Source: Clostridia bacterium
GTDB taxonomy: Bacteria; Bacillota; Clostridia; Christensenellales; CAG-138
Reading direction: 5' to 3'
Assembly (NCBI GenBank): GCA_030527165.1
Contig: JAUNBH010000009.1
Coordinates: 1-36,994, forward strand
DNA: 36,994 nt
A program made the position numbers and the translations under genes. The notes below the pieces were generated by a model that did not search any database, was not told where the DNA came from, and saw nothing but the letters and a program-made list of their open reading frames with translations. Below, piece by piece: positions 2,767 to 24,746 of the stretch; the first letter of the stretch is position 1; each line of letters opens with the position of its first letter.

Positions 2767-2797
2767 TAGTATGCGTTGTCCACGTCACGTTCAATAC
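2767..2797 (-). promoter_or_regulatory. Possible sigma-F/G-type promoter of the small peptide gene
   Basis: On the minus strand CATACTA (2767-2773) fits the forespore -10 consensus CATnnTA. GTATT (2793-2797) is an imperfect GNATR-like -35 at a slightly long 19-base spacing. No good sigma-A promoter is visible in the 54-base gap before the gene. Tentative. Confidence 0.3.
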
Positions 2798-4620
2798 ACC
2801 TCAAACTGCGAATAATACAACTCCCTATAAATGCCATTTTTTGCCATCAATTCCTCGTGCGTGCCGCTCTCGGCTATGCTTCCGTCCTCCATGACAAGTA
2901 TGAGATCCGCATGGCGGATAGTAGATAGCCTGTGCGCTATCACAAAGCACGTCCTCCCCTGCATCAGCCGGCGCATCGCCGCCTGTATCTGCTGCTCCGT
3001 CTGCGTGTCGACGTTAGACGTCGCCTCGTCCAAAATGAGCATCTTCGAGTCGAGCAGCATGGCTCGTGCAATGGTCAACAGCTGCTTCTGACCTTTGGAT
3101 ATGGCCGCGCCGTTGTCACTGATGACCGTGTCGTATCCATTCGGCAGTCTCATAATGAAACTGTGTATCCGCGCCGCCTTTGCCGCGGCGATCACCTCCT
3201 CACGCGTGGCGCCGTCCTTTGAGTACGCTATGTTGTCGTGTATCGTACCGTTAAACAGCCATGTGTCCTGCAGCACCATAGTATACGCCTTGCGCACGCT
3301 CGACCGCGTGAGTCCGTATATGTCGTTTGAATCCAGCTCTATGCTGCCATGCTCTATGTCGTAGAAGCGCATCAGTAAGTTTATTATCGTAGTCTTGCCC
3401 GCCCCGGTCTGGCCCACTATGGCGATCAGATTTCCCCTGTCCGCGTGCAGGTTGAGTCCTTTGATAACTGTGCGCTCCGGAACATAGCCAAAGTCCACGT
3501 CCTTCATGTCGACGTCCCCGTATATATCCGTCAATACCTTTGCGTCGGCGGCATCCGGTTTTTCAGGCAGCTCGTCTATGAGGCGGAATACCCTCTCTGC
3601 CGCGGCAAACGCAGATTGAAGCTCGCCAAATATGTTTGCAGTCTCGTTTATCGGGCCGGAAAACTTTCTCGAATACAATACGAACGACGATATGTCGCCC
3701 AGACCGATGCGCCCGCTTAGGTACAGTATGGCTCCAAAAGTGCTTACCAACGCCAGTGAAATGTTGTTTATGAAGTTGACTGACGGGCCCATAATAGAGC
3801 CGTGGTACTCCGACTCGGTATACGCCTCCACGGCCTCGTCATTTTTGTCATCAAACCTGCTCAGTATTACATCCTCGCGCCCGTACGCGCGGGTCGTCCT
3901 TTGCCCGGCTATCATCTCCTCGGCAAAGCCGTTCATTTCGCCCAATTTGGCGGACCTGCGCCTGAAGAGCGGCCGCACTTTCTTCGTTATGTAGCGCGTA
4001 AACAGTATGGACGCCGGTACGGTAACGCCAAACACGCATACCAGAATCGGAGCTATGCGAAGCATCATCACCAGCGAGCCCACGACCGTTATGACGCTCC
4101 TGCACATTTGCAGCAGGTCATTCGATATGGAGGCGTTTACCGTGTCAATGTCGTAGGATATTACGCTGATTATGTCGCCCGTCTGGCGGGTGTCAAAGAA
4201 GCTGACCGGCAACTGCACCAGCCTGTCGAAAACGTCCCTGCGCATGCGGAATGTAACTTTCCGCGTGAGCTCTATCATCACCACGGACAGTATGTACGAG
4301 AGCACAAAGGACGCGGCGTAGCACCCCAGCATCAGCGCGACGCAGCTTAGAATCGTTTCGAAGTCCGCGCTGTGCGGCAAATCGCCTATCGCGTCTATCG
4401 CCATTCCGGACAGCCTCGGCCCCCACAGCTGCAGCAGATTGCTTGCTATCGTGAGTACTATCGCCACCGCTACAAGCAGCTTGTACCTGTTCAAATAGCC
4501 CCACAGCCTGCGCAGTATGTACTTTTTGTCGGGCTTGGCGCCTCCAAAGGAACGCCTGTCGCCCGTCGCTTCAAAACCCTGTGTTAGTCTACCGCCCATG
4601 CCTCCGGGTTGGTTACGCAT
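2791..4620 (-). CDS. ABC exporter half-transporter, catalytic-site subunit
   Basis: Fused TMD-NBD exporter subunit (609 aa from ATG 4620). A Gly-rich N-terminal tail precedes a six-helix membrane domain. The C-terminal ATPase has Walker A G-Q-T-G-A-G-K-T-T, Walker B M-L-I-L-D-E with the catalytic Glu, and the H-loop I-A-H-R-L-S-T. Its signature is altered to I-S-K-G-Q-K-Q instead of L-S-G-G-Q. Paired with the upstream gene, this suggests a heterodimeric exporter of the BmrCD/LmrCD/TM287-288 type, in which this subunit supplies the Walker half of the working ATP site. I chose ATG 4620, 8 bases after GGAGG; the GTG at 4629 overlaps that site. It overlaps the upstream gene by 8 bases. The substrate is unknown; drugs, lipids or peptides are all possible. 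Confidence 0.92.
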   Translation of the reverse strand: MRNQPGGMGGRLTQGFEATGDRRSFGGAKPDKKYILRRLWGYLNRYKLLVAVAIVLTIASNLLQLWGPRLSGMAIDAIGDLPHSADFETILSCVALMLGCYAASFVLSYILSVVMIELTRKVTFRMRRDVFDRLVQLPVSFFDTRQTGDIISVISYDIDTVNASISNDLLQMCRSVITVVGSLVMMLRIAPILVCVFGVTVPASILFTRYITKKVRPLFRRRSAKLGEMNGFAEEMIAGQRTTRAYGREDVILSRFDDKNDEAVEAYTESEYHGSIMGPSVNFINNISLALVSTFGAILYLSGRIGLGDISSFVLYSRKFSGPINETANIFGELQSAFAAAERVFRLIDELPEKPDAADAKVLTDIYGDVDMKDVDFGYVPERTVIKGLNLHADRGNLIAIVGQTGAGKTTIINLLMRFYDIEHGSIELDSNDIYGLTRSSVRKAYTMVLQDTWLFNGTIHDNIAYSKDGATREEVIAAAKAARIHSFIMRLPNGYDTVISDNGAAISKGQKQLLTIARAMLLDSKMLILDEATSNVDTQTEQQIQAAMRRLMQGRTCFVIAHRLSTIRHADLILVMEDGSIAESGTHEELMAKNGIYRELYYSQFEVY

Positions 4621-6334
4621 CGCGCTCACCTCCCATTTGCGTATGGGCTATGCGCCTGTACGCATCACATGAGACGACCAGTTCGTCATGCGTGCCGGCG
4701 CCGATTGGCCTCCCGTCGTCCAAAACGAGTATCTCATTCGCGTTCTTAATCGAACTGACGCGCTGCGCCACTATCACTGTCGTCATGTTTGGATAGTTGG
4801 TGTGCAGCGCCCTTCTAAGCGCCGCGTCCGTCTTGTAATCCAGGGCGCTGGATGAGTCGTCCAACAGCAGCAGGTCCGGCTCGGCGGCTATTGCCCGCGC
4901 AATAAGCATGCGCTGCCGCTGCCCGCCGCTGATGCTCGAGCCCCTCTGCGCCACCACAAAGTCCAGGCCCTCCTGCCGCTGGCTGATAAACTCCTCCGCC
5001 TGAGCTGTGCGAACGGCCTTCCACAGCTGTGCCTCACTCAATCCCCTGCCGTAATCTATGTTGTCGCGGAGAGTTCCGGCCATTATGAAATCGTTTTGCA
5101 TTGCCACGCCTATGCGCGAGGTCAGGTCGCGGCGCGTCAGTGTCCTGACGTCCCTTCCGTCGATGAAAACAGCGCCCTGTCTCGGGTCGTAAAAGCGCAG
5201 TATCAGGTTTATCACGGTGCTCTTGCCGCTTCCGGTTGCGCCGATTATGCCCAGCGTCTCACCCGGGCGAAGCGCAAAGCTCACACCGGTCAAGTTGTCC
5301 TCTACGCCGTTGTAGGAGAACGACACATTTCTAAACTCCAGCCGATAGCGCTTATCGCCCGCACAATCCGTCTCCGCGAGCACAGGCATGTCCTCCTCTG
5401 CGCGTAACACCTCATCTATCCTGTTCGCAGAGGCTATCGCCCTGGAGCACACTATGAAAATACGAGTGATGCCGAGCATGGCATTGAGTATTATCGTGAA
5501 ATACGACAGGAAGGCTATAATAGTGCCGCGCTCCGTCAAGGCGGAATCCGCCCTGTACGCCCCGACAAGCACTATGAGCGCCAAGCCCACATTGAGTATG
5601 AGCGTAGTCGACGGATTCGTTATCGCCATGAGTATTCCGGCTTTTCTCTCGTTGTCGGATAGCTCCTCGTTGACGCTCGAAAAACGCTCGCGCTCGCGCT
5701 CCGATTTAGACAAGGCCTTGATTATGCGCACTCCGGTCACATTCTCCTGCACGGTCATGACGAGTTTGTCGAGCGCCTTTTGACATTTTGTGTATACGGG
5801 TATGCTGAACTTTGTAACGAAAAACACAACGCACGCTATCAGCGGCAGCATGCCCACGAGTACCATTGTAAGCACCGGGTCGAGGCTGAGCGTGAACACC
5901 ATGCCGCCTATCAGCAGAATAGGTCCGCGTACGCCTATGCGCTGTACACGCGTAAGCATCTGATTGACATTGTAGGTATCGCTCGTCAAACGCGACACCA
6001 GCGACGATGCGGTAAAGCGATCCAGCTGCGGGCTCGACAGGTAGCCGATTCGCGAAAAGAGGTCATGCCGCAGCTTGCGTGTGACCTTTCCGGAACTGCG
6101 CGTCGCCATCCGATTTGCCATTATATTGGTCACAACCGAAAAAACGGCGCACAGGGCCATTACGCCTCCCCACACCAATATACGGTTTACATCGCCTGTA
6201 GGTATGACATCGTCGATTATTATCTCGAGCACATACGGGATCATCAGATCCATCATCGTGGCGAAGAACTTGACAACCAGTCCCAACGCCATCTCGCCCC
6301 TGTGCGGGCGTATGTATGACATGAGCATGTCCAA
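4613..6334 (-). CDS. ABC exporter half-transporter, degenerate-site subunit
   Basis: Fused TMD-NBD exporter subunit (up to 573 aa). The membrane domain occupies about residues 10-300, and the NBD has Walker A at 365-372 (G-A-T-G-S-G-K-S), Q-loop Q413 and the canonical signature S-G-G-Q-R-Q-R at 469-475. Walker B reads L-L-L-L-D-D, with Asp493 in place of the catalytic Glu, and the H-loop His is replaced by Gln (V-A-Q-R-V). It therefore contributes a good signature but a poor catalytic half, complementary to its partner at 2791-4620. The start is uncertain: TTG 6334, or in-frame ATGs at 6328 and 6322, since no strong ribosome site is visible. First gene of a two-gene operon from the promoter at 6462-6490. 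Confidence 0.92.
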   Translation of the reverse strand: MDMLMSYIRPHRGEMALGLVVKFFATMMDLMIPYVLEIIIDDVIPTGDVNRILVWGGVMALCAVFSVVTNIMANRMATRSSGKVTRKLRHDLFSRIGYLSSPQLDRFTASSLVSRLTSDTYNVNQMLTRVQRIGVRGPILLIGGMVFTLSLDPVLTMVLVGMLPLIACVVFFVTKFSIPVYTKCQKALDKLVMTVQENVTGVRIIKALSKSERERERFSSVNEELSDNERKAGILMAITNPSTTLILNVGLALIVLVGAYRADSALTERGTIIAFLSYFTIILNAMLGITRIFIVCSRAIASANRIDEVLRAEEDMPVLAETDCAGDKRYRLEFRNVSFSYNGVEDNLTGVSFALRPGETLGIIGATGSGKSTVINLILRFYDPRQGAVFIDGRDVRTLTRRDLTSRIGVAMQNDFIMAGTLRDNIDYGRGLSEAQLWKAVRTAQAEEFISQRQEGLDFVVAQRGSSISGGQRQRMLIARAIAAEPDLLLLDDSSSALDYKTDAALRRALHTNYPNMTTVIVAQRVSSIKNANEILVLDDGRPIGAGTHDELVVSCDAYRRIAHTQMGGERDA

Positions 6335-8449: not shown

Positions 8450-11400
8450 TCAGTTTGCGGAATCGGGCTCCCCTATGTCGACCTTTTTGGGATTGCGCTT
8501 GCAGAGCACGTCGTACAGCAGCGGTACAACTATCAATGTCAAAAGCGTGGCGTAACCCAAGCCGCCGATTATCGTCGCCGCAATGGGCTGTAGTATGTCC
8601 GCTCCGGTTCCAACGCCAAACAGCAACGTCAGAAGACCCAACACCGTCGTTATTGTGGTCATCAGTATAGGCCTCAATCTGCTCTTGCCGGCCTCTATCA
8701 AAGCTTCCTTGCGTTCCATGCCGTCCTGCCGAAGCTTGTTCGTAAAATCTATGAACACTATGCCGTTGTTGACCACGACGCCAACCAACACCAGAAGCCC
8801 TATGAGGGCAATGACGCTTAGATTGAAGCCCAGTATGTACAGCATCAGTATCGCACCCGTGAATGCAAGCGGAACCGTCAGCATCACAATCAACGGCGAC
8901 AAGAACGACTGGAACTGTGCCACCATTATAGCATATATCAGCACGATTGCAAGTAGAATCATAAGTGTCAGATCCTCTAACATGTCCGATATCAGTTTGT
9001 TCTCGCCCATTTCTACGATGCTGTAACCCTCGGGCATGTCGTAGCCCGCGAGGAGCGCGTCAATCTCCCTGCCGATCCTGCCAACATTGTGGTCGATGTC
9101 GACTTCGGCGGTTATCTGACACAGGCGCACATAATCGCTGCGCGATATGCTGTTGTAGCCCTGTTCTACCGTCAACTCCGCTATATCGCCCAACAGCACC
9201 GTTTCATCGCCGCCGGCGGACGTGAGCTCCATATCCATTATGTCGCTGTACGACGCGCTCAGCGCCTCGTCCTTCGCTACGATTACCGGATATGCCGTGC
9301 CCTCGATGGTAATATCCGATGCGGACGCCTCCGTGCTCAACTCGCTCGATACCTGCGCGTATACCTGTGCGACGGTGAGCCCGTACTCCATGGCGGCGTT
9401 CTTATCCACGGTTATGCGCACTTCGTCAGACGCTTCGCCGAGCGTGCTGTCAACATTGTAGACGCCGTCTACATCCGATATGAGCGCGGCTATATCACTG
9501 CCTATGCGGGCGAGTTCATCGAGATCGTCGCCCTGCACATACAAATCTATTCCCGAGCCCAGATAGCTCGTAAGGCTGGTCAACACGTTGCTCGCAGACA
9601 CGGTCAGCGGCAAATCAGCGGCGGCGTCCACTATCTCCTGCGACACGGTCATACTCGTCTTATCCCTGTCCTCTTTGAGCACCACATACATGCTGAACCC
9701 GCTTGAGCCGCTCATCGACAGGCTAGAACCGCTGCCCTCCATCGCGCCTACGGTCTCAATCGCCTCGTTTTCCAGCAATCTGTCCATGAGCGTCGTCACC
9801 GCTTCCCTGCCGGCCTCCTGCGTCGTATCCTCGGACGTCTCTATGCTGACCATTATCTCGCTGAAGTCTGAATCCGGTATGAACTCCGTCCCCATAGACA
9901 GCACGAGTCCCACGGCTATGGCGAGCAACACGGACGCCGCAGTAAGCGGTAACCACTTACGCCCAAGACACCACGCAAGCGCTTTGGCATACCACCCGCT
10001 TACCTTATCGTGCAGCTTGCTCTTGTGCTGTTCCTTGTTCTTGAGCAACGTGGACGACAGCGCGGGTACGAGCGTAAGCGCCACAAGCAAGCTCGCTGTC
10101 AGAGAATACGCTATCGTAAGCCCCATGTCCGCGAATAGCTCCCTCGTCAGCCCCTGCGTAAACGCTATCGGCAGGAACACGCATACCGTGGTGAGGGTTG
10201 AGGCGATTATCGGTCCGGATATCTGCTTTGCGCCCGCCACCGCCGCCGCGGCGGCGCTCATGCCCTTCTGGCGCAGACGGTATATGTTTTCTATGGTGAC
10301 TATGCTGTTGTCGACTAACATGCCCACTCCGAGCGCCAACCCCGCCAGCGAAAGTATGTTGAGGTTGACATCAGTGAAGTACATGAGCACCACGGTCAGC
10401 ATGAGACTTATGGGTATGCTCACGCCAACTATTAGCGTGGAGCGCGCGCTCCTCAAGAACAACATCAGCACGATTACCGCCAGAACGGCGCCATAGAGCA
10501 GATTGCTTATTACCGTGCCAATGACGATGTCGATGTAAACGCCTTGATCCATCAGCATGACGACCTCACCGTCTTCCTGCTGAGCATTGATATCCTCTAT
10601 CGTCTCGCGCAGCTCCCTCGATACTGCCGTCGTCGAGTAGTTGCTCTGTTTCTGCACTATCATCAACAGCCCGTTTGCCGAGTTGAGCTTCGCGTAGACC
10701 TCGCCCTCGTTGTTTGATATCTGTATGTCGGCTATGTCTTCAAGCGTTATTGCGCCAATATCCGCCTCCTCAACGCGCAGAAGCTCCAGGGACTTCACCT
10801 CGTCCAATGACGAGAACGGCTCGCCCACCTTGACCGCCATGCGCGCGTCTTCGTTGAGCACGTAACCTGCCGGAAGCGAGAAATTATCCGCGGTCAGCAG
10901 TTGGCTCAGCATATCCGCGGTTACCGCTCCACCAACGTTCGCCTGCGCCAGCGCCTCGTCACGCGCTCTCTCAAACGCCTCTCGCGCGGCAGCGAGTTCC
11001 GCTTCCGCCGCCTCGAGCGCAGCCGTTGTCTCCTCAACCGTGTTCTCGAGCTGCGACATTCCGGAGTTTAGCGCCGCTTCCTGCCTGGCTATCTCCTCCA
11101 GCGCGGCGTTTAGCTCCGCACGGCTTTGCTCGATGGTGTCCAAGCCGCTCTCGCACTGCGCTATGCCCTCGTTGACCTGCGCCAACAGCGCATTTAGTTC
11201 ATCCACTGTGGGGTTCCCGAGTTCCTCGAGCGCCGCGACGAGCGCGTCGCGCTGCTCTACAAGGCGAGCGAGCGCCTCGACCAGTATCGTGCGCTGCGAC
11301 TGCTGCTGTTCCAGCTCGGCGCGGACGCGGGCTATTTCCTCATCGACCTCCGCTATCTCCCGCTCGAGCCGCGCGCGTTCCTCATCGTACTCCGCGCCCT

Positions 11401-12412
11401 CCGGAAGCGCCTCAAGCGCCGCAACCAGCTCCGCGCGCCGCTGCTGCAGCGCCTCGAGCTCCGCGGTGACAGCGGCTATATCCTCGTCTATGCTAACTAT
11501 GGCGCCTTCGGCGAGCACTATCGCCGCGTTTAGCTCGTCCAAGCTCTCCGCGCCCAGAATCAGCGTCACAAGCTGCGCCCTGCGCTCCGTCAGTTCCGCG
11601 AGCGTCTGCTCTGTCTCCAACTGCGCCAACTGAAGCTGCGCCAGTCCGGCGTTTACCTCCTGGCGCGCGGCGCGGAGCGCTATCTGCGCAGCCCTGATCT
11701 CCGCTTCGGCGTCTGCGGACTGGTTATTCAGTTCATCCCAACCGGAATCTATTTCCGCCTGCGCGGCGTCGAGCTCGTCCTCGACCTTCGCCAATTCCTC
11801 GTTTACTACCTCGAGTATCCTGTGGTTTAGGTCGTCTATCTTGTCGGATGACAGCGTTATGTTGATGTACTCCTCCGTCGCGCCCATGGAGCTGACGCTC
11901 GCAACGCCGTCTACGCGCTCTATGGGCCTGAGTACGTTCTCCTCGACATACCGCGTCAATTCCGCTCCGTGCAGCCCGCCTGCCGACACGCTTATACACG
12001 CCACCGGCAGCATGTCTGGGTTTATCTTCATGTAGACGGGCGTTCCCACGGCGTCCTCAAGCTGCCCCGTCACCATGTCAATGCGGCTGCTTAGCTCAAT
12101 TATGGCGCTGTCCATGTTCGCATCCTGCGCGTATTGCAGTATTATAACGCTCACGTTCTCAGCCGATGTGCTGCGCACGCTCTCTATTCCGCTGAGCGTG
12201 GATATGGCGCTCTCAAGCGGCGTGGTCAGAGCGGTCTCAACCTTTTCGGGGCTCGCGCCCGCATATGTCGTGTACACCACCACGTACGGAAAGTCCATGC
12301 TCGGCAGCAAATCGGTAGTCAGATTCGTGAATGCGATTACGCCAAGTACAATGACGAGAAAAACCGCGATTATCACGGTCAGCGGCTTTTTGACGCTAAA
12401 TGAAGACAGCAC
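8450..12412 (-). CDS. RND-superfamily (HAE1/SwrC-like) transporter with coiled-coil insert
   Basis: A 1320-residue RND permease, with family-typical membrane and porter segments in two repeats: N-terminal helix (about 10-30), then R-S-A-R-S-T-L-I-V-G-V-S-I-P-I-S-L and G-V-G-M-L-V-D-N-S-I-V-T-I-E-N, and in the second repeat V-V-V-N-N-G-I-V-F-I-D-F. The TM4 Asp pair of AcrB is Asp-Asn here and the TM10 Lys is Asn, as I recall for Firmicutes SwrC relatives. Residues about 196-492 are an Ala/Glu/Leu-rich coiled coil inserted where AcrB has its TolC-docking subdomain. Ordinary homologues are about 1050 aa. The start is GTG 12412 after GGGAG. No membrane-fusion or outer-membrane partner is nearby. 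It could export lipids, surfactants or drugs. Confidence 0.9.
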   Translation of the reverse strand: MLSSFSVKKPLTVIIAVFLVIVLGVIAFTNLTTDLLPSMDFPYVVVYTTYAGASPEKVETALTTPLESAISTLSGIESVRSTSAENVSVIILQYAQDANMDSAIIELSSRIDMVTGQLEDAVGTPVYMKINPDMLPVACISVSAGGLHGAELTRYVEENVLRPIERVDGVASVSSMGATEEYINITLSSDKIDDLNHRILEVVNEELAKVEDELDAAQAEIDSGWDELNNQSADAEAEIRAAQIALRAARQEVNAGLAQLQLAQLETEQTLAELTERRAQLVTLILGAESLDELNAAIVLAEGAIVSIDEDIAAVTAELEALQQRRAELVAALEALPEGAEYDEERARLEREIAEVDEEIARVRAELEQQQSQRTILVEALARLVEQRDALVAALEELGNPTVDELNALLAQVNEGIAQCESGLDTIEQSRAELNAALEEIARQEAALNSGMSQLENTVEETTAALEAAEAELAAAREAFERARDEALAQANVGGAVTADMLSQLLTADNFSLPAGYVLNEDARMAVKVGEPFSSLDEVKSLELLRVEEADIGAITLEDIADIQISNNEGEVYAKLNSANGLLMIVQKQSNYSTTAVSRELRETIEDINAQQEDGEVVMLMDQGVYIDIVIGTVISNLLYGAVLAVIVLMLFLRSARSTLIVGVSIPISLMLTVVLMYFTDVNLNILSLAGLALGVGMLVDNSIVTIENIYRLRQKGMSAAAAAVAGAKQISGPIIASTLTTVCVFLPIAFTQGLTRELFADMGLTIAYSLTASLLVALTLVPALSSTLLKNKEQHKSKLHDKVSGWYAKALAWCLGRKWLPLTAASVLLAIAVGLVLSMGTEFIPDSDFSEIMVSIETSEDTTQEAGREAVTTLMDRLLENEAIETVGAMEGSGSSLSMSGSSGFSMYVVLKEDRDKTSMTVSQEIVDAAADLPLTVSASNVLTSLTSYLGSGIDLYVQGDDLDELARIGSDIAALISDVDGVYNVDSTLGEASDEVRITVDKNAAMEYGLTVAQVYAQVSSELSTEASASDITIEGTAYPVIVAKDEALSASYSDIMDMELTSAGGDETVLLGDIAELTVEQGYNSISRSDYVRLCQITAEVDIDHNVGRIGREIDALLAGYDMPEGYSIVEMGENKLISDMLEDLTLMILLAIVLIYAIMVAQFQSFLSPLIVMLTVPLAFTGAILMLYILGFNLSVIALIGLLVLVGVVVNNGIVFIDFTNKLRQDGMERKEALIEAGKSRLRPILMTTITTVLGLLTLLFGVGTGADILQPIAATIIGGLGYATLLTLIVVPLLYDVLCKRNPKKVDIGEPDSAN

Positions 12413-18437: not shown

Positions 18438-21400
18438 TTAGAGCAAACCGTCCTCGAACAAGCTGACCTGGTTGGACGCCCTGAGCGCGGAGAGCGCGCC
18501 CAGCGCATCCAACTTGTCCACGACTGCGCTGTTCGCCTTAGTCCTCTGCACAAAATCCTCCCGCGAGCGGTATTCCCCGCCCTGCGCGCCCCTCGCCAGG
18601 TCAAGCGCAGCGGATTCACCTACACCGCTGACCGAGACGAACGGCGGCCTGAGCGCACCGTCTTCTATGGTGAATCTGAGCGCGTCCGACTTGTATATGT
18701 CAATGGGAAGCACCTTTATGCCGCGCTGCATCATCTCGTACACCGCTTCGAGCAGCGTCAGCTTCTCCTCGTCCTTTGCCCCGCCCGCCGCTTCGCGCGA
18801 CCGCGGCTGCTTGAGCAGTCTTATCCTCGTCGCCAATGCGTCCGCCGGCGCCTCAATATCGCTTATGTCCAGCGCAGTCGCCCTCACGCTTAGATACATG
18901 GCGTAAAACTCCAACGGGTAATACAGCTTGTAGTACGCCACTCGATACGTCATCATGACATATGCTGCGGCGTGTGCCCTCGGGAACAGATAGTTTATCT
19001 TGTCCGCAGAGTTTATGTACCACTCCGGTACGCCCAACGACTCCATGAATTCCCTCATCTCGGCGGAAACATGCTTGCCCTTGCGGATTGCCTCCATGGT
19101 CGAGAAAGCCATGGAGGCATCGCCTCCGAGCGATATGAGGTAGTTCATTATGTCGTCGCGCAGGCATATGACTTCCGACAGGGTGGCGGTGCCGTCCAAT
19201 ATCAGATCCCGTGCGTTGCCACGCCACAGATTCTCGCCGTGGGAGAGCCCTGATATGCGCACAAGCTCCTCCATCGTGGTCGGGCGGGTATCCTCCAGTA
19301 TGCCGCGGACAAACACCGTACCAAACTCCGGCAGAGCGAGGCTGCCCACTTCGCAGCCTATTTCCCGCAGCGATATGCCCATTTCATCGCACGTGGAAAA
19401 CAGCGACATGGTGCGCTTGTCGTCCAATGGCACTGTCTTTGGGTCTACGCCAGTCAGGTCGTGCAGCATTCTCAGCGCCGTAGGATCGTCGTGACCGAGT
19501 ATGTCGAGCTTCACTAACTTATCGTCCATAGCGTGAAAGTCAAAGTGCGTGGTGACGACGTCGACCCCCTGCTTGTCAGCCGGATAATTGACAGGCGTAA
19601 AGTCGTATATCTCGTACCCCTCCGGCACGATCACTATGCCGCCCGGATGCTGCCCGGTAGTGCGTTTGACGCCAGTGCAGCCCATAGCCAGCCGCGTCAT
19701 CTCCGCCGTAGGCAGCTTTATCCCCTTATCCTCACAGTAGTGACGCACAAACTCGAGCGCGGTCTTATCCTGCACCGTGGATATGGTGCCCGCCTTATAT
19801 GCGTGGCCCTTTCCCGCCATCTCCTCTGCAAACCCGTGCGCCACCGCCTGATAATCGCCCGAGAAGTTCAAGTCTATATCGGGCGTCTTGTCGCCCTTAA
19901 AGCCCAAAAACACCTCAAATGGTATGTCGTAGCCAAGCCGTTTGAGCTCCGCGCCGCACACGGGGCAATTCCGCACCTCGAGGTCTATACCGCAGCGCGA
20001 CAGCCTGTCCGCGAAGTCAAAGTCAGAATACTTGCACGACGCGCACACATAGTGCGGCGGCAGCGGATTTACCTCAGTTATACCGACCATCGTCGCCACA
20101 AAGGACGAGCCAACAGACCCGCGCGAGCCCACGAGGTAGCCTTCGGACAGTGATTTGCCGGTCAACCGCTGCGCCATGATGTACAGCGAGGCGTAACCGT
20201 TGTTTATGATGGAGTTAAGCTCTTTTTCTAAGCGCTTGCTCACAATATCTGGCAGCTCATCGCCGTAAAGCGCGCGAGAAGCGCTGTACGCGGATTCGCG
20301 CAACTCCTCGTCGGCGCCGTCTATCACCGGCACATACGTCCGGCGCTCGTTGAGATACGGCGATAGCGACTCGCACATGTCGGCTATGGCGTTCGTGTTG
20401 GCGACCACCACTTCATATGCCTTCTCCTTGCCCAGGTAGGCGAACTCGTTCAGCATATCGTCCGTCGTTCTGAAGTACAGCGGCGGCTGTATATCCGCAT
20501 CGGAATATCCTTTGGCGTGCATGAGTATTGTCCTGAATACCGAATCCTCCGGTTCCAGAAAATGAACGTCTCCCGTCGCTACAACCGGCTTTCCAAGCCT
20601 GTCGCCCAGCTCGACTATGCGTTCGTTAAGCCTCCGCAACCCGTCAATATCGCTCACGCGGCCCTCGCGGCGCAGAAAATCGTTATTGCCAACGGGCTGT
20701 ATCTCCAAGTAGTCGTAAAAGCCCGCTATGCGCTCCAAATCCGCATCGCTCGCACCGTCGAGCACAGCGCGGAAGAGTTCTCCCGCCTCACAGGCAGAGC
20801 CCACTATCAGCCCGTACCTGAGCGTCATCAGCATGGTGCGCGGTATGCGCGGCACGCCCTTGAAGTGCTCCATATGCGAGAACGAGAGCAGCTTATAGAG
20901 GTTCTTGAGCCCCGCTCTGTTGCGCGCAAGTATTATGATGTGGCGGGCGTTGTATCCCCTGCCCTTCTCGTGACCGGCGGTGAAGCCGATGTTCATCGGG
21001 AGTTCCGCCGCTCCGCGCGCGGCAAGCCGCTCCGTCATGTCCCACAGCATGCTTGCGAGGAACTCCAACCGCTCTGCAGCGCTCACAGGCACGGCACGTC
21101 CAAACGCAGCCGCAAGGTTGCCCAATGAAAACTCCAGTATCTCCGTATGCTCATATCGGAGCATTGCCTCTAAATTCACAAACTTGCTTAACTGCGGTAT
21201 CGAACACGCCTCATGCAGCGCCTCGAGCGCCTTCCTGTCGAATGTCGCTACGGCGTCGACGCCGCGCACGATCTCTGCGATGTGTTGTGCGGCATTGCGC
21301 TTATCGGGCGAGAAGTCCATGAGGTGGCGCACTACGGGGTAGTAATCCTCCTCCCGCATACTGACTCCGACGGCGGGAATGCGCCAGATGAACGGCTCAC

Positions 21401-22649
21401 ACGCCAACTCGCCGTTGCGCACGCGCGCTGAAGCTATTACCAGTTCGGCGCGCTCGCCTCGCTGCATGAAAACGTCTATCAGCGCGAGCGTACCGCAGGC
21501 GGACACGCCCCAACCATCCTCTATGAGATAGCCCTCAACGCCGAGTATCGCCTTGACGCCCGCCTTCTGCGCCGCAGCATATGCGGAGGGGAAGCCATGC
21601 GCCACGCCGTGATCCGTTATGGCGACCGCCTTGTGTCCCCATCTCGCCGCCGTCGCGACGGCGTCATTCGCCTTGTCGCTCGCCTCTAAAAGCGCGTCCA
21701 TAGACGAGAACTTGGTGTGCAGATGGAGCTCTACGCGCTTCTGAGGCGCGCTGTCCATTCTATACTCCTCGTCCGCAGTCTCGATATCCGCAACTTGCAG
21801 GCTCATCTCGCCCAAGAACGCATCGTACATGTACCTGCCGCGTATGAGCAGCCTGTCGCCTTTCTCTTTGAGCTTCGGCAGGCGCTTGAGCACGTCGTTG
21901 CCCTTCTTATCATCGCTCAGAAACAGCTTGCAGCATGTGGCAAACGAGCCGTCCGACAGTATGAACTGCAGCAGCGACCTGCCCTTGTTGAGCGGCCTGG
22001 TGGTGTAATCTATTATCCTGCCCGACACCGTCACGCGCTCCGACGCATCTGAGAGCTCTCGCAGTTTTATGGGCCGCCCCTTTATCGGGCGTCCGAATAC
22101 CTGCCGCTCCGTCGGTTGACCCTTTGAAACGCCCGGCACATAACCGTCCCCGGTATCATACTTTGGCGCCGGCAACTGCAGTTCTGCGCTCGGGTATGTC
22201 ACCACGCCGTCGAGTATGCCGTACTTGCGCAGCAGCTCCGCATTTATGCGCCGCTCCGCATTGACCATACTCATAAGCTCCATCGCCTCCATTGGATAGT
22301 AGATGACCAGCCTGCCGCCTTCCACTTCCACGCGGGAGTACTTCAGGACATGCGCTATCGTGGGTATGCTCGCCGAAAGATCCGCCAGCACTATGCCCGC
22401 GGCCCGTTCGTCCGCCTTAAGCTGGCCCGCGGCGTCCTCATACTTAAATACAACCGTACATTTCATACCGCGGGGCGAGACGCTAAGAACCGAGCGGACG
22501 ATGGTCTCCCTCGCTCGCTCGATTTCAGATGCAGGCAGTATGCGCCTGCTCATTATTGTGACGCTCAAGGTGCGCGCGCGCTTGAGCAACGCCACGCTCA
22601 TGACCTCGTACGAATCGCTAAGGCTCCTCACCAACTCCTGCAGATGCAT
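18438..22649 (-). CDS. polC: DNA polymerase III alpha subunit PolC, exonuclease domain apparently degenerate
   Basis: Replicative polymerase of low-GC Gram-positives (1403 aa; Bacillus PolC is about 1437). In order: N-terminal domain, OB fold (about 205-290), PHP part 1 with E-L-H-L-H-T (307-312) and I-T-D-H-G (344-348), a 150-residue insert where the DnaQ-type exonuclease sits (about 384-540), PHP part 2, a zinc motif (C-A-S-C / C-P-V-C), the palm with P-D-I-D-L-N-F-S-G, fingers and a C-terminal thumb/HhH region. In the insert, ExoI D-V-E-T reads D-V-F-M (392-395), ExoII keeps only Asp471 without H-N, and the ExoIII His and Asp are missing (A-V-P-V-S-A-A-E, 519-526). Polymerase motifs look intact. 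I chose ATG 22649 after GGAGGAG; it overlaps ispG by 32 bases. Last gene of the run. Confidence 0.95.
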   Translation of the reverse strand: MHLQELVRSLSDSYEVMSVALLKRARTLSVTIMSRRILPASEIERARETIVRSVLSVSPRGMKCTVVFKYEDAAGQLKADERAAGIVLADLSASIPTIAHVLKYSRVEVEGGRLVIYYPMEAMELMSMVNAERRINAELLRKYGILDGVVTYPSAELQLPAPKYDTGDGYVPGVSKGQPTERQVFGRPIKGRPIKLRELSDASERVTVSGRIIDYTTRPLNKGRSLLQFILSDGSFATCCKLFLSDDKKGNDVLKRLPKLKEKGDRLLIRGRYMYDAFLGEMSLQVADIETADEEYRMDSAPQKRVELHLHTKFSSMDALLEASDKANDAVATAARWGHKAVAITDHGVAHGFPSAYAAAQKAGVKAILGVEGYLIEDGWGVSACGTLALIDVFMQRGERAELVIASARVRNGELACEPFIWRIPAVGVSMREEDYYPVVRHLMDFSPDKRNAAQHIAEIVRGVDAVATFDRKALEALHEACSIPQLSKFVNLEAMLRYEHTEILEFSLGNLAAAFGRAVPVSAAERLEFLASMLWDMTERLAARGAAELPMNIGFTAGHEKGRGYNARHIIILARNRAGLKNLYKLLSFSHMEHFKGVPRIPRTMLMTLRYGLIVGSACEAGELFRAVLDGASDADLERIAGFYDYLEIQPVGNNDFLRREGRVSDIDGLRRLNERIVELGDRLGKPVVATGDVHFLEPEDSVFRTILMHAKGYSDADIQPPLYFRTTDDMLNEFAYLGKEKAYEVVVANTNAIADMCESLSPYLNERRTYVPVIDGADEELRESAYSASRALYGDELPDIVSKRLEKELNSIINNGYASLYIMAQRLTGKSLSEGYLVGSRGSVGSSFVATMVGITEVNPLPPHYVCASCKYSDFDFADRLSRCGIDLEVRNCPVCGAELKRLGYDIPFEVFLGFKGDKTPDIDLNFSGDYQAVAHGFAEEMAGKGHAYKAGTISTVQDKTALEFVRHYCEDKGIKLPTAEMTRLAMGCTGVKRTTGQHPGGIVIVPEGYEIYDFTPVNYPADKQGVDVVTTHFDFHAMDDKLVKLDILGHDDPTALRMLHDLTGVDPKTVPLDDKRTMSLFSTCDEMGISLREIGCEVGSLALPEFGTVFVRGILEDTRPTTMEELVRISGLSHGENLWRGNARDLILDGTATLSEVICLRDDIMNYLISLGGDASMAFSTMEAIRKGKHVSAEMREFMESLGVPEWYINSADKINYLFPRAHAAAYVMMTYRVAYYKLYYPLEFYAMYLSVRATALDISDIEAPADALATRIRLLKQPRSREAAGGAKDEEKLTLLEAVYEMMQRGIKVLPIDIYKSDALRFTIEDGALRPPFVSVSGVGESAALDLARGAQGGEYRSREDFVQRTKANSAVVDKLDALGALSALRASNQVSLFEDGLL

Positions 22650-23703
22650 TATCGCTCCTCCCCGCCGCCATCGCTTTGGCGGTCTCAACCAATACGGCGA
22701 CAGCTTCGTCCTTGCCGCCGGAAAAACACTTCTCGCCGCCTGCAAATACCACCGCGCCGCCCGGCGCAAAAGCTATGCCTACATCCGCCTCGCGCGCCTC
22801 CCCGGGCCCATTGACCACGCAGCCCATTACCGCCACCTTCAAGGGCTTTGCGCACCGCCTCAACTCGTGCGCTATAACCTGCGCGAGCCCTTCGACGTCG
22901 CCTGCAGTCCTGCCGCACGTCGGACAGCTAATGACTTCCACACCTGCGCGCTTAACGCCCACTGCCGCCAGTATGCTCTGCGCCGCCAGGACTTCCCGCA
23001 CGGGGTCGCCTGTCATGGACACGCGCACGGTGTCGCCGATGGAGTCGAGCAGCAGCGCGCCTATGCCTATCGCGCCCTTTACGAGCGCATCTTCGCCAAA
23101 GCCCGCCTCCGTTACGCCAATGTGAAACGGATAATCGCATTTTGTGCGCAACAGCCTGTACGCCTCCACGGTGGTGCGCACGGACGACGACTTCATAGAG
23201 ACGACTATGTCCCGGAAATCGTGCCTCTCCAACAGCGCGATATGACGCATGGAGCTCTCTACCATGGCCTCAGCGGTAGCTTTTCCGTGCTTTTGAAGCA
23301 ATTCCCGTTCCAGTGAGCCGCCGTTTACGCCTATGCGAATTGGCACTGAATGCCGCTTTGCAACTTCCGACAGCAGCCGGACGTTTTCATCCGAGCCTAT
23401 GTTGCCGGGATTGATGCGCACCTTGTTCGCGCCGCGCTCTATCGCGCCGACTGCAAGCCTGTAATCGAAATGAACATCCGCAACCAACGGTATGCGTATG
23501 CGCTTCACTATGCCGCCTATGGCCTCCACGCACTCCGAATCGTACACGGATACGCGCACAATGTCGCATCCGGCGTCCTCAAGCGCGCGTATCTGCGCCA
23601 CCGTGGCGTCCACGTCGCGCGTGTCGGTATTAGTCATCGACTGTATCGTTACGCGCGCGCCGCCGCCTATCGGCGTGCCGCCCACTATGACCTGACGAGT
23701 CAT
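22618..23703 (-). CDS. ispG: 4-hydroxy-3-methylbut-2-en-1-yl diphosphate synthase
   Basis: Iron-sulfur enzyme of the MEP isoprenoid pathway, converting MEcPP to HMBPP (361 aa from ATG 23703). The TIM-barrel part starts T-R-Q-V-I-V-G-G and contains Q-S-M-T-N-T and R-I-N-P-G-N-I-G. The C-terminal domain holds the 4Fe-4S ligands in S-C-P-T-C-G-R and M-G-C-V-V-N-G-P-G-E-A. I prefer ATG 23703, about 7 bases after a GGGG site, over GTG 23709, which overlaps the rseP stop. It follows rseP directly and overlaps polC. Together with dxr and uppS it puts three isoprenoid steps in one operon. Confidence 0.96.
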   Translation of the reverse strand: MTRQVIVGGTPIGGGARVTIQSMTNTDTRDVDATVAQIRALEDAGCDIVRVSVYDSECVEAIGGIVKRIRIPLVADVHFDYRLAVGAIERGANKVRINPGNIGSDENVRLLSEVAKRHSVPIRIGVNGGSLERELLQKHGKATAEAMVESSMRHIALLERHDFRDIVVSMKSSSVRTTVEAYRLLRTKCDYPFHIGVTEAGFGEDALVKGAIGIGALLLDSIGDTVRVSMTGDPVREVLAAQSILAAVGVKRAGVEVISCPTCGRTAGDVEGLAQVIAHELRRCAKPLKVAVMGCVVNGPGEAREADVGIAFAPGGAVVFAGGEKCFSGGKDEAVAVLVETAKAMAAGRSDNASAGVGEEP

Positions 23704-23708
23704 TCTCA

Positions 23709-24746
23709 CTACCCCGCAAGTATGCGCGAAATGTCGTTAAACGTCAGCAACAGCATCAGCCCTATGAGCAGTACGAATCCCGCGAAGTGCACTATCGCCT
23801 CGACTTTTCGCGAGATCGGACGCCGTATTATCGCCTCTATCACCATGAATACGAACCGTCCGCCGTCAAGCGCGGGTAGCGGCAGCAGGTTTATAAAGCC
23901 CAAGTTTACGCTCATTATGACCGCTATCATGAGTACGACTTCAAAACCGGCCCGTACCGCCTGGCCAATAATCTGTATCGTTCCGACCGGCCCCGCAACG
24001 TCATCGCCGTCCACGTCGCCCGTAAACAAACTGCCCAGGAAGCCGAACATCTGCTTAACAAGGTCAGCCGTGTACGACACGGAACGCGAGCATGCCGCAA
24101 AGAATCCCAACTGCTCCCGCTGCGGGCTTATCGTTATGCCGAGGAGATTTCGCCCCTCCTCCGCGTCGAATATGTTCTCAACCCACGTCGTTATCTCCAC
24201 TCCGCCGCGGCTGAGCACTACAATCGCGCGAGTCGTATTCGCTTCCAGTATCGCCGGCGTGATGGCATCGTAATTGTCAACTGCGTACCCGTCGACGCTG
24301 AGTATTACGTCCCCCGCCTCTATTCCCGCAAGCTCCGCGGGCGAATCCTCCGATACGGACTGCACCACGGGCGGGACATCGTATTGATAATCGCCTCCGA
24401 ACGCCAACAGCGTTATCGCCGCTATCACAAGCGCCAGCACGAAGTTCATCAGAGGCCCGGCGAGCACCACTATCATGCGCTTCCAAACGGGCTGCGCGTT
24501 GAAACTGCCCTCCGACTCCTCCTCGTCCTCACCGTCAAACTGACACATGCCGCCTATGGGAAACGCCCTCAGCGCGTAAATCGTGCCTTTGCGCTCGAAC
24601 TTGAATATGCGCGGCCCCATTCCCACGGCAAACTCGACTATCCTGAATCCGAGCAGGCGGCCAGCCCAGTAATGCCCCAGCTCGTGTATTACCACCAGTA
24701 TGCTGAGTACTACCAGTGCCGCCAATATAGAGAGAACAGTATCCAA
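23709..24746 (-). CDS. rseP: Site-2 protease RseP/RasP (M50 zinc metalloprotease)
   Basis: Intramembrane protease that cuts anti-sigma factors, signal-peptide remnants and division proteins within the membrane (345 aa). It has H-E-L-G-H at 21-25 in the first helix, a PDZ domain (about 120-195) with S-P-A-E-L-A-G-I-E-A-G-D-V-I-L, and the second zinc-ligand motif L-P-A-L-D-G-G-R near residue 295. An acidic stretch (E-D-E-E-E-S-E) follows the first membrane segment. The start is TTG 24746, 8 bases after a GGAGG lying in the last codons of dxr. It stands between dxr and ispG, the usual Firmicutes order. Confidence 0.95.
   Translation of the reverse strand: MDTVLSILAALVVLSILVVIHELGHYWAGRLLGFRIVEFAVGMGPRIFKFERKGTIYALRAFPIGGMCQFDGEDEEESEGSFNAQPVWKRMIVVLAGPLMNFVLALVIAAITLLAFGGDYQYDVPPVVQSVSEDSPAELAGIEAGDVILSVDGYAVDNYDAITPAILEANTTRAIVVLSRGGVEITTWVENIFDAEEGRNLLGITISPQREQLGFFAACSRSVSYTADLVKQMFGFLGSLFTGDVDGDDVAGPVGTIQIIGQAVRAGFEVVLMIAVIMSVNLGFINLLPLPALDGGRFVFMVIEAIIRRPISRKVEAIVHFAGFVLLIGLMLLLTFNDISRILAG

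Follow-up and report, generated by a model that had tools for sequence, protein, structure and literature searches.

A degenerate, probably inactive DnaQ-type exonuclease domain retained in the replicative polymerase PolC of a clade of Christensenellales-type bacteria

The canonical PolC polymerases of B. subtilis, E. faecium (9QPC) and S. aureus are the closest described relatives of the enzyme studied here, which shares with them the domain order, the polymerase aspartates, the PHP ligands, and the fold and position of the exonuclease. However, the clade to which it belongs lacks the DEDDh active site, and its exonuclease slot diverges faster. PolCs without the Exo insertion, 6% of the total and found in Clostridia and Negativicutes, were reported in 2013 (PMC3919608); these are likewise devoid of DnaQ activity, paired with DnaE1 and in possession of the PHP domain, whereas in our clade the domain is still present and predicted to be folded. 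Exonuclease-null PolCs have been engineered in E. faecium, where the D431A+E433A enzyme polymerises (PMC12592400), and in S. aureus (PMC3656037). Since such an enzyme polymerises, a PolC can work beside a dead exonuclease domain, but in the clade the state is natural, seemingly ancient, and extends to all motifs. Mycobacterium tuberculosis DnaE1 proofreads by its PHP domain, an activity that has been measured (PMC5636811), and it resembles our PolC in having nine intact PHP ligands and no active fused DnaQ; it belongs, however, to the DnaE family and has no inserted exonuclease, and in our clade a PHP activity would be assigned by analogy. Dead proofreading domains are also retained in Pol I types with inactive 3'-5' exonuclease domains, PolA2/APEX and PolB2 (PMC12926913), but these are accessory or repair polymerases, while PolC is the chromosomal replicase, and the same 2026 survey states that in Pol III alpha subunits it is PHP, not DnaQ, that becomes inactivated (PMC12926913), the reverse of what the clade shows. 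Our literature search for a dead PolC exonuclease, whose coverage left out most subscription papers, returned none, and a replicative PolC with a retained dead DnaQ domain appears to be undescribed in the literature searched.

The window, that is, the whole stretch of DNA analysed, comprises 36,994 nucleotides and contains the following features of the PolC gene, all on the minus strand.
18438-22649, minus: PolC, identified by NCBIfam match and the C-terminal clamp-type motif QVSLF
19503-19880, minus: polymerase catalytic aspartates (19878-19880, 19872-19874, 19503-19505), intact by alignment
20562-20942, minus: second half of PHP with ligands H, C, D, H (20940-20942, 20790-20792, 20568-20570, 20562-20564), all kept by alignment
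20943-21527, minus: degenerate DnaQ-type exonuclease domain of 195 aa inside PHP, DEDDh site absent, by alignment, profiles and predicted fold
21057-21089, minus: ExoIII, P-V-S-A-A-E-R-L-E-F-L, without His or Asp, by alignment
21228-21245, minus: ExoII, T-F-D-R-K-A in place of A-H-N-x-x-F-D, by alignment
21465-21476, minus: ExoI, D-V-F-M in place of D-x-E-T, by alignment
21534-21725, minus: first half of PHP with ligands H, H, D, H, E (21723-21725, 21717-21719, 21696-21698, 21609-21611, 21534-21536), all kept by alignment

The frame is continuous over 18438-22769 and open up to a TTG at 22769; the ATG at 22647-22649 is the likely start, giving a product of 1403 aa, and residue numbers used below refer to the 1444-codon stop-to-stop frame. 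The protein passes the NCBIfam models PRK00448 (1342 bits, cut-off 873) and TIGR01405 (1254.5 bits, cut-off 1043.45), and its gene is flanked by ispG (22618-23709) on one side and by an ABC-transporter ATPase gene on the other. This PolC is the main replicative polymerase of an uncultured bacterium of the same order as Christensenella, whose PolC (L114) adjoins in the tree L075, a sequence from the order of the window genome. Elsewhere in the window, a large AcrB/RND-type efflux protein of 1320 aa is encoded at 8450-12412 (minus strand) in this Clostridia-type genome, close to two ABC exporters (2791-6334).

The exonuclease slot is bounded by the PHP ligands E413 and H611. An initial annotation of the locus had placed a proofreading domain without catalytic residues at 21030-21500, which covers most of the slot, and the alignment bears this out for all three motifs: ExoI retains the Asp and has lost the Glu, ExoII has no H-N and an Asp placed by the alignment on or close to the position of the canonical one, and the His and Asp of ExoIII are absent. 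The polymerase and zinc motifs, described there as intact, are so, with three aspartates and nine PHP ligands in place. As for the loss of proofreading that it had proposed, DnaQ-type (DEDDh) activity has, judging from these motifs, almost certainly disappeared from this PolC. Pfam RNase_T gave no match to this PolC at a threshold as loose as E 0.1, while it matched the slots of 26 out of 40 relatives at E <=1 (best 8.5e-12), and therefore the slot is regarded as homologous but degenerate.

A profile built from 40 dead slots only (we call a PolC, slot or genus dead when the catalytic set is missing and live when it is intact) retrieved the exonucleases of T. maritima PolC (2p1j, E 6.7e-17) and of E. 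faecium PolC (E 3.6e-16). AlphaFold (AF2), with dead sequences as its only input, predicted for the slot an RNase H-like DnaQ fold (pLDDT 88, pTM 0.83) lacking the DEDDh set. The top structural match of this model was the exonuclease of E. faecium PolC (Z 14.1, with an rmsd of 4.7 over 170 aligned residues), and E. coli epsilon was matched with Z 10-11. A structure prediction had been suggested at the outset, and its outcome agrees with the retained proofreading fold that was claimed then. When PHP and slot were modelled together, 363 residues were matched to E. faecium PolC with Z 23.5 and an overall rmsd of 14.4, which means that the two domains do not lie relative to each other as they do in that structure; the AF2 model is also weak at the first PHP ligands (pLDDT <50 within residues 3-18). 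Descent, as judged by the profiles, and predicted fold thus both identify the slot as an exonuclease domain. An alignment error as the cause of the missing residues is ruled out, since two alignments agree with each other, with the matches of the dead-only profile to solved structures and with the predicted fold.

In order to see how far the loss extends, as the initial annotation had recommended, 183 PolCs were aligned, the sample of the window's family comprising 103 genomes from 26 genera. The dead or live state divides cleanly by genus. The catalytic set is missing in 41/41 PolCs of 13 genera (g1, 4, 7, 8, 9, 12, 14, 16, 21, 22, 23, 25 and 26) and intact in all 45 PolCs of the family's live genera (g2, 3, 6, 10, 13, 15, 18 and 19); the loss is common to the former, and the sister genera retain the set. 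Across the rest of the class, all five residues are retained in each of the 88 readable sampled insertions, an 89th being masked at ExoIII, a contrast beyond what chance would give; as this sample consists mostly of longer frames, it gauges the dead share of existing insertions and not the frequency of a missing insertion. In trees from which the slot columns had been left out, the dead genera formed one clade, with SH-aLRT 97 in the first tree, and with bootstrap 84 and SH-aLRT 82 (present in 90% of the bootstrap trees) when polymerase columns only were used; a third tree also placed 41/41 dead PolCs together. The branch joining the dead genera is short and its support only moderate in one tree. 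On the evidence of these sequences, loss of the exonuclease is ancestral to a 13-genus clade of this Christensenellales-type family.

Outside this clade, apparently independent changes led to a degenerate exonuclease in L071 (G047, from another family) and in L131 (Bacillota bacterium AS09scLD_55), and the insertion is absent altogether from L069 (G042, sister of the window's family in the tree), which is of the insertion-less kind. In L020 (G005, g5), apparently also a separate event, the exonuclease departs from the intact state by a single D-to-Y substitution in ExoI, which removes the leading catalytic Asp and is either a recent loss or an artefact of sequencing. Two further observations concern other PolCs. 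In the palm of L180, the only PolC found in genome G112, the third polymerase catalytic Asp is Gly (LVKLGILGHDD), possibly a sequencing error, and genome G251 carries two PolC genes (L321 and L322, on contigs C21 and C30), both with a live exonuclease.

The dead slot evolves quickly and in a constrained manner. At 80-90% polymerase identity its median identity is 49%, versus 71% for live slots, and one pair is 98% identical in the polymerase and 62% in the slot. For most pair distances slot divergence is 2-5 times that of the polymerase in the dead clade, versus 1.3-2.3 times in live relatives. Values of dN/dS for the slot are about 0.14-0.56 in close dead pairs, similar to those of the N-terminal domain, and up to 0.17 in live pairs, those of the polymerase being mostly <0.13. 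Slot length is stable, no broken frame occurs among the 41 dead PolCs, and only 15 slot columns are conserved at >=80%, versus 100 in live PolCs. The dead slot is therefore under purifying but relaxed selection: with dN/dS <1, stable length, open frames and few conserved columns, selection acts on the fold and no longer on the active site. As dN/dS is <1 in every close pair, positive selection on the slot was ruled out.

The motif of the nine PHP ligands in the window PolC is HHDHEHCDH, in agreement with HHDHEH[C/H]DH, and all nine are present in 51/51 dead PolCs with a complete PHP. Since almost every clostridial PolC retains these ligands, whatever the state of its exonuclease, they are weak evidence for a takeover of proofreading by PHP. 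When PolCs of matched polymerase identity are compared, the first half of PHP is slightly less conserved in the dead than in the live clade. A changed motif, HHDHEHCNH, was found in 22 PolCs, all from Bacilli and all with a live exonuclease, which together with the 51 intact dead cases fits the idea that DnaQ can be lost only where PHP is intact. These sequences give a direction and not a proof, because the independent losses number only about five and PHP is retained by almost every clostridial PolC. The opposite state, a live exonuclease with a PHP motif broken as aligned (HHADDKGDR), was seen in L350 (G206). Among DnaE1 sequences from dead-clade genomes, 13/14 have all the PHP motif pieces searched. 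DnaE was not found in the window's own genome (G000), but since this assembly is 94.6% complete and the congener G001 carries DnaE, an assembly gap is likelier than loss.

Taken as a whole, the explanation that we consider probable is a single ancestral inactivation, with the dead folded shell kept for structure and proofreading left to PHP. A single event in an ancestor shared by at least 13 genera would have inactivated the inserted DnaQ-type 3'-5' exonuclease, and a folded, catalytically dead pseudo-exonuclease would have been kept since. Its insertion into the PHP domain, together with a presumed structural or spacing role, may account for the persistence of the shell, while active-site residues drift; the 2013 survey offers a counterpoint, as about 6% of PolCs do without any insertion (PMC3919608). 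Proofreading would now fall to the PHP metal site in cis, by analogy with mycobacterial DnaE1, and to mismatch repair. For this PHP step, in which PHP is the remaining candidate proofreader, we see about even chances. That the clade is a large natural lineage whose PolC is proofread solely by PHP, the first such PolC, with the DnaQ domain as a dead scaffold, is put forward more tentatively, at somewhat less than even chances. As a natural experiment, the clade bears on the question of whether a PolC can be proofread by PHP, and it may inform on the non-catalytic need of a replicase for its exonuclease domain and on mutation rates following an ancient loss of DnaQ proofreading.

It is less likely, although it is the strongest of the alternatives, that nothing replaced the lost activity and that PolC works without proofreading, the lineage bearing additional replication errors that are caught by mismatch repair. 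In its favour, the DEDDh site has been lost with no dedicated substitute found, MutS is encoded by the own genome and by most relatives (no loss of MutS was seen), and B. subtilis with a proofreading-deficient polC allele is viable (PMC11890065). However, strong B. subtilis mutators are counter-selected (PMC11890065), the PHP ligands are intact in all dead PolCs with a complete PHP, and the polymerase part shows no mutator sign, its root-to-tip distance being 0.51 in dead and 0.57 in live PolCs, though rates of protein evolution are a poor guide to the mutation rate.

A still less probable explanation is that a stand-alone DEDDh exonuclease replaced the PolC domain in trans. The search for a stand-alone DnaQ in the own genome yielded a single RNase_T-family protein, L001, a DEDDh enzyme also present in the congener; its nearest relative is KapD, and KapD/ERI1-like enzymes are RNase-like by family. 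Other dead genomes contain DnaQ-like proteins too, but they are varied, and their types (DVETPN-type and the classical DxETTG type) also occur in live-PolC genera; among the sampled genomes no stand-alone DnaQ was common to dead genera and missing from live ones. Moreover, no RNase_T protein was found in the dead genome G016, which is 94% complete. A rescue by a dedicated stand-alone DnaQ, along the lines envisaged initially, is thus not supported.

Returning to the preferred single inactivation with a retained shell, a further alternative would make the slot a different functional module, for instance one for binding or a nuclease whose active site has arisen anew. The preserved length and fold and the very fast sequence change (as in the 98%/62% pair) would suit it. 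Nevertheless, we hold it to be very improbable, as no conserved polar residues mark a site, no diversifying selection appears with dN/dS <1, and no substitute active site was found in the dead slots, where the sole Asp, Glu or His conserved at >=80% is a linker Asp. An artefact of assembly or sequencing, or a second copy in decay, has practically no chance of explaining the clade, even if its sequences include metagenome assemblies, since 41 PolCs of 13 genera share the state with one PolC per genome (no second live PolC was found in dead genomes at E 1e-150) and frames open throughout; it stands for the single D-to-Y case in L020.

A free-standing PolC-type exonuclease, composed of the N-terminal region and the exonuclease as in L053, was not found at E 1e-15 in the dead genomes G000, G001, G009, G016 and G021; among the other family matches listed, only the exonuclease part was covered. 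In the same order, families f3, f6, f8, f9, f10, f13, f14, f16, f18, f19, f20, f24 and f26 gave no PolC-level match in highly complete genomes, and about half of the order's sampled families seem to replicate without PolC. Same-order genomes without PolC encode a protein of 510-540 aa (L044, L046, L047, L053, L059, L060 and L061) that consists of the PolC N-terminal region, the OB fold and an intact DEDDh exonuclease, without PHP and polymerase, and that matches the PolC N-terminal profile with E 1e-12 to 2e-29; frames of this size were matched in many families of the order. Judging from its domain make-up, this protein is apparently the head of PolC retained as a free proofreader in DnaE-only bacteria, the mirror image of the dead PolC.
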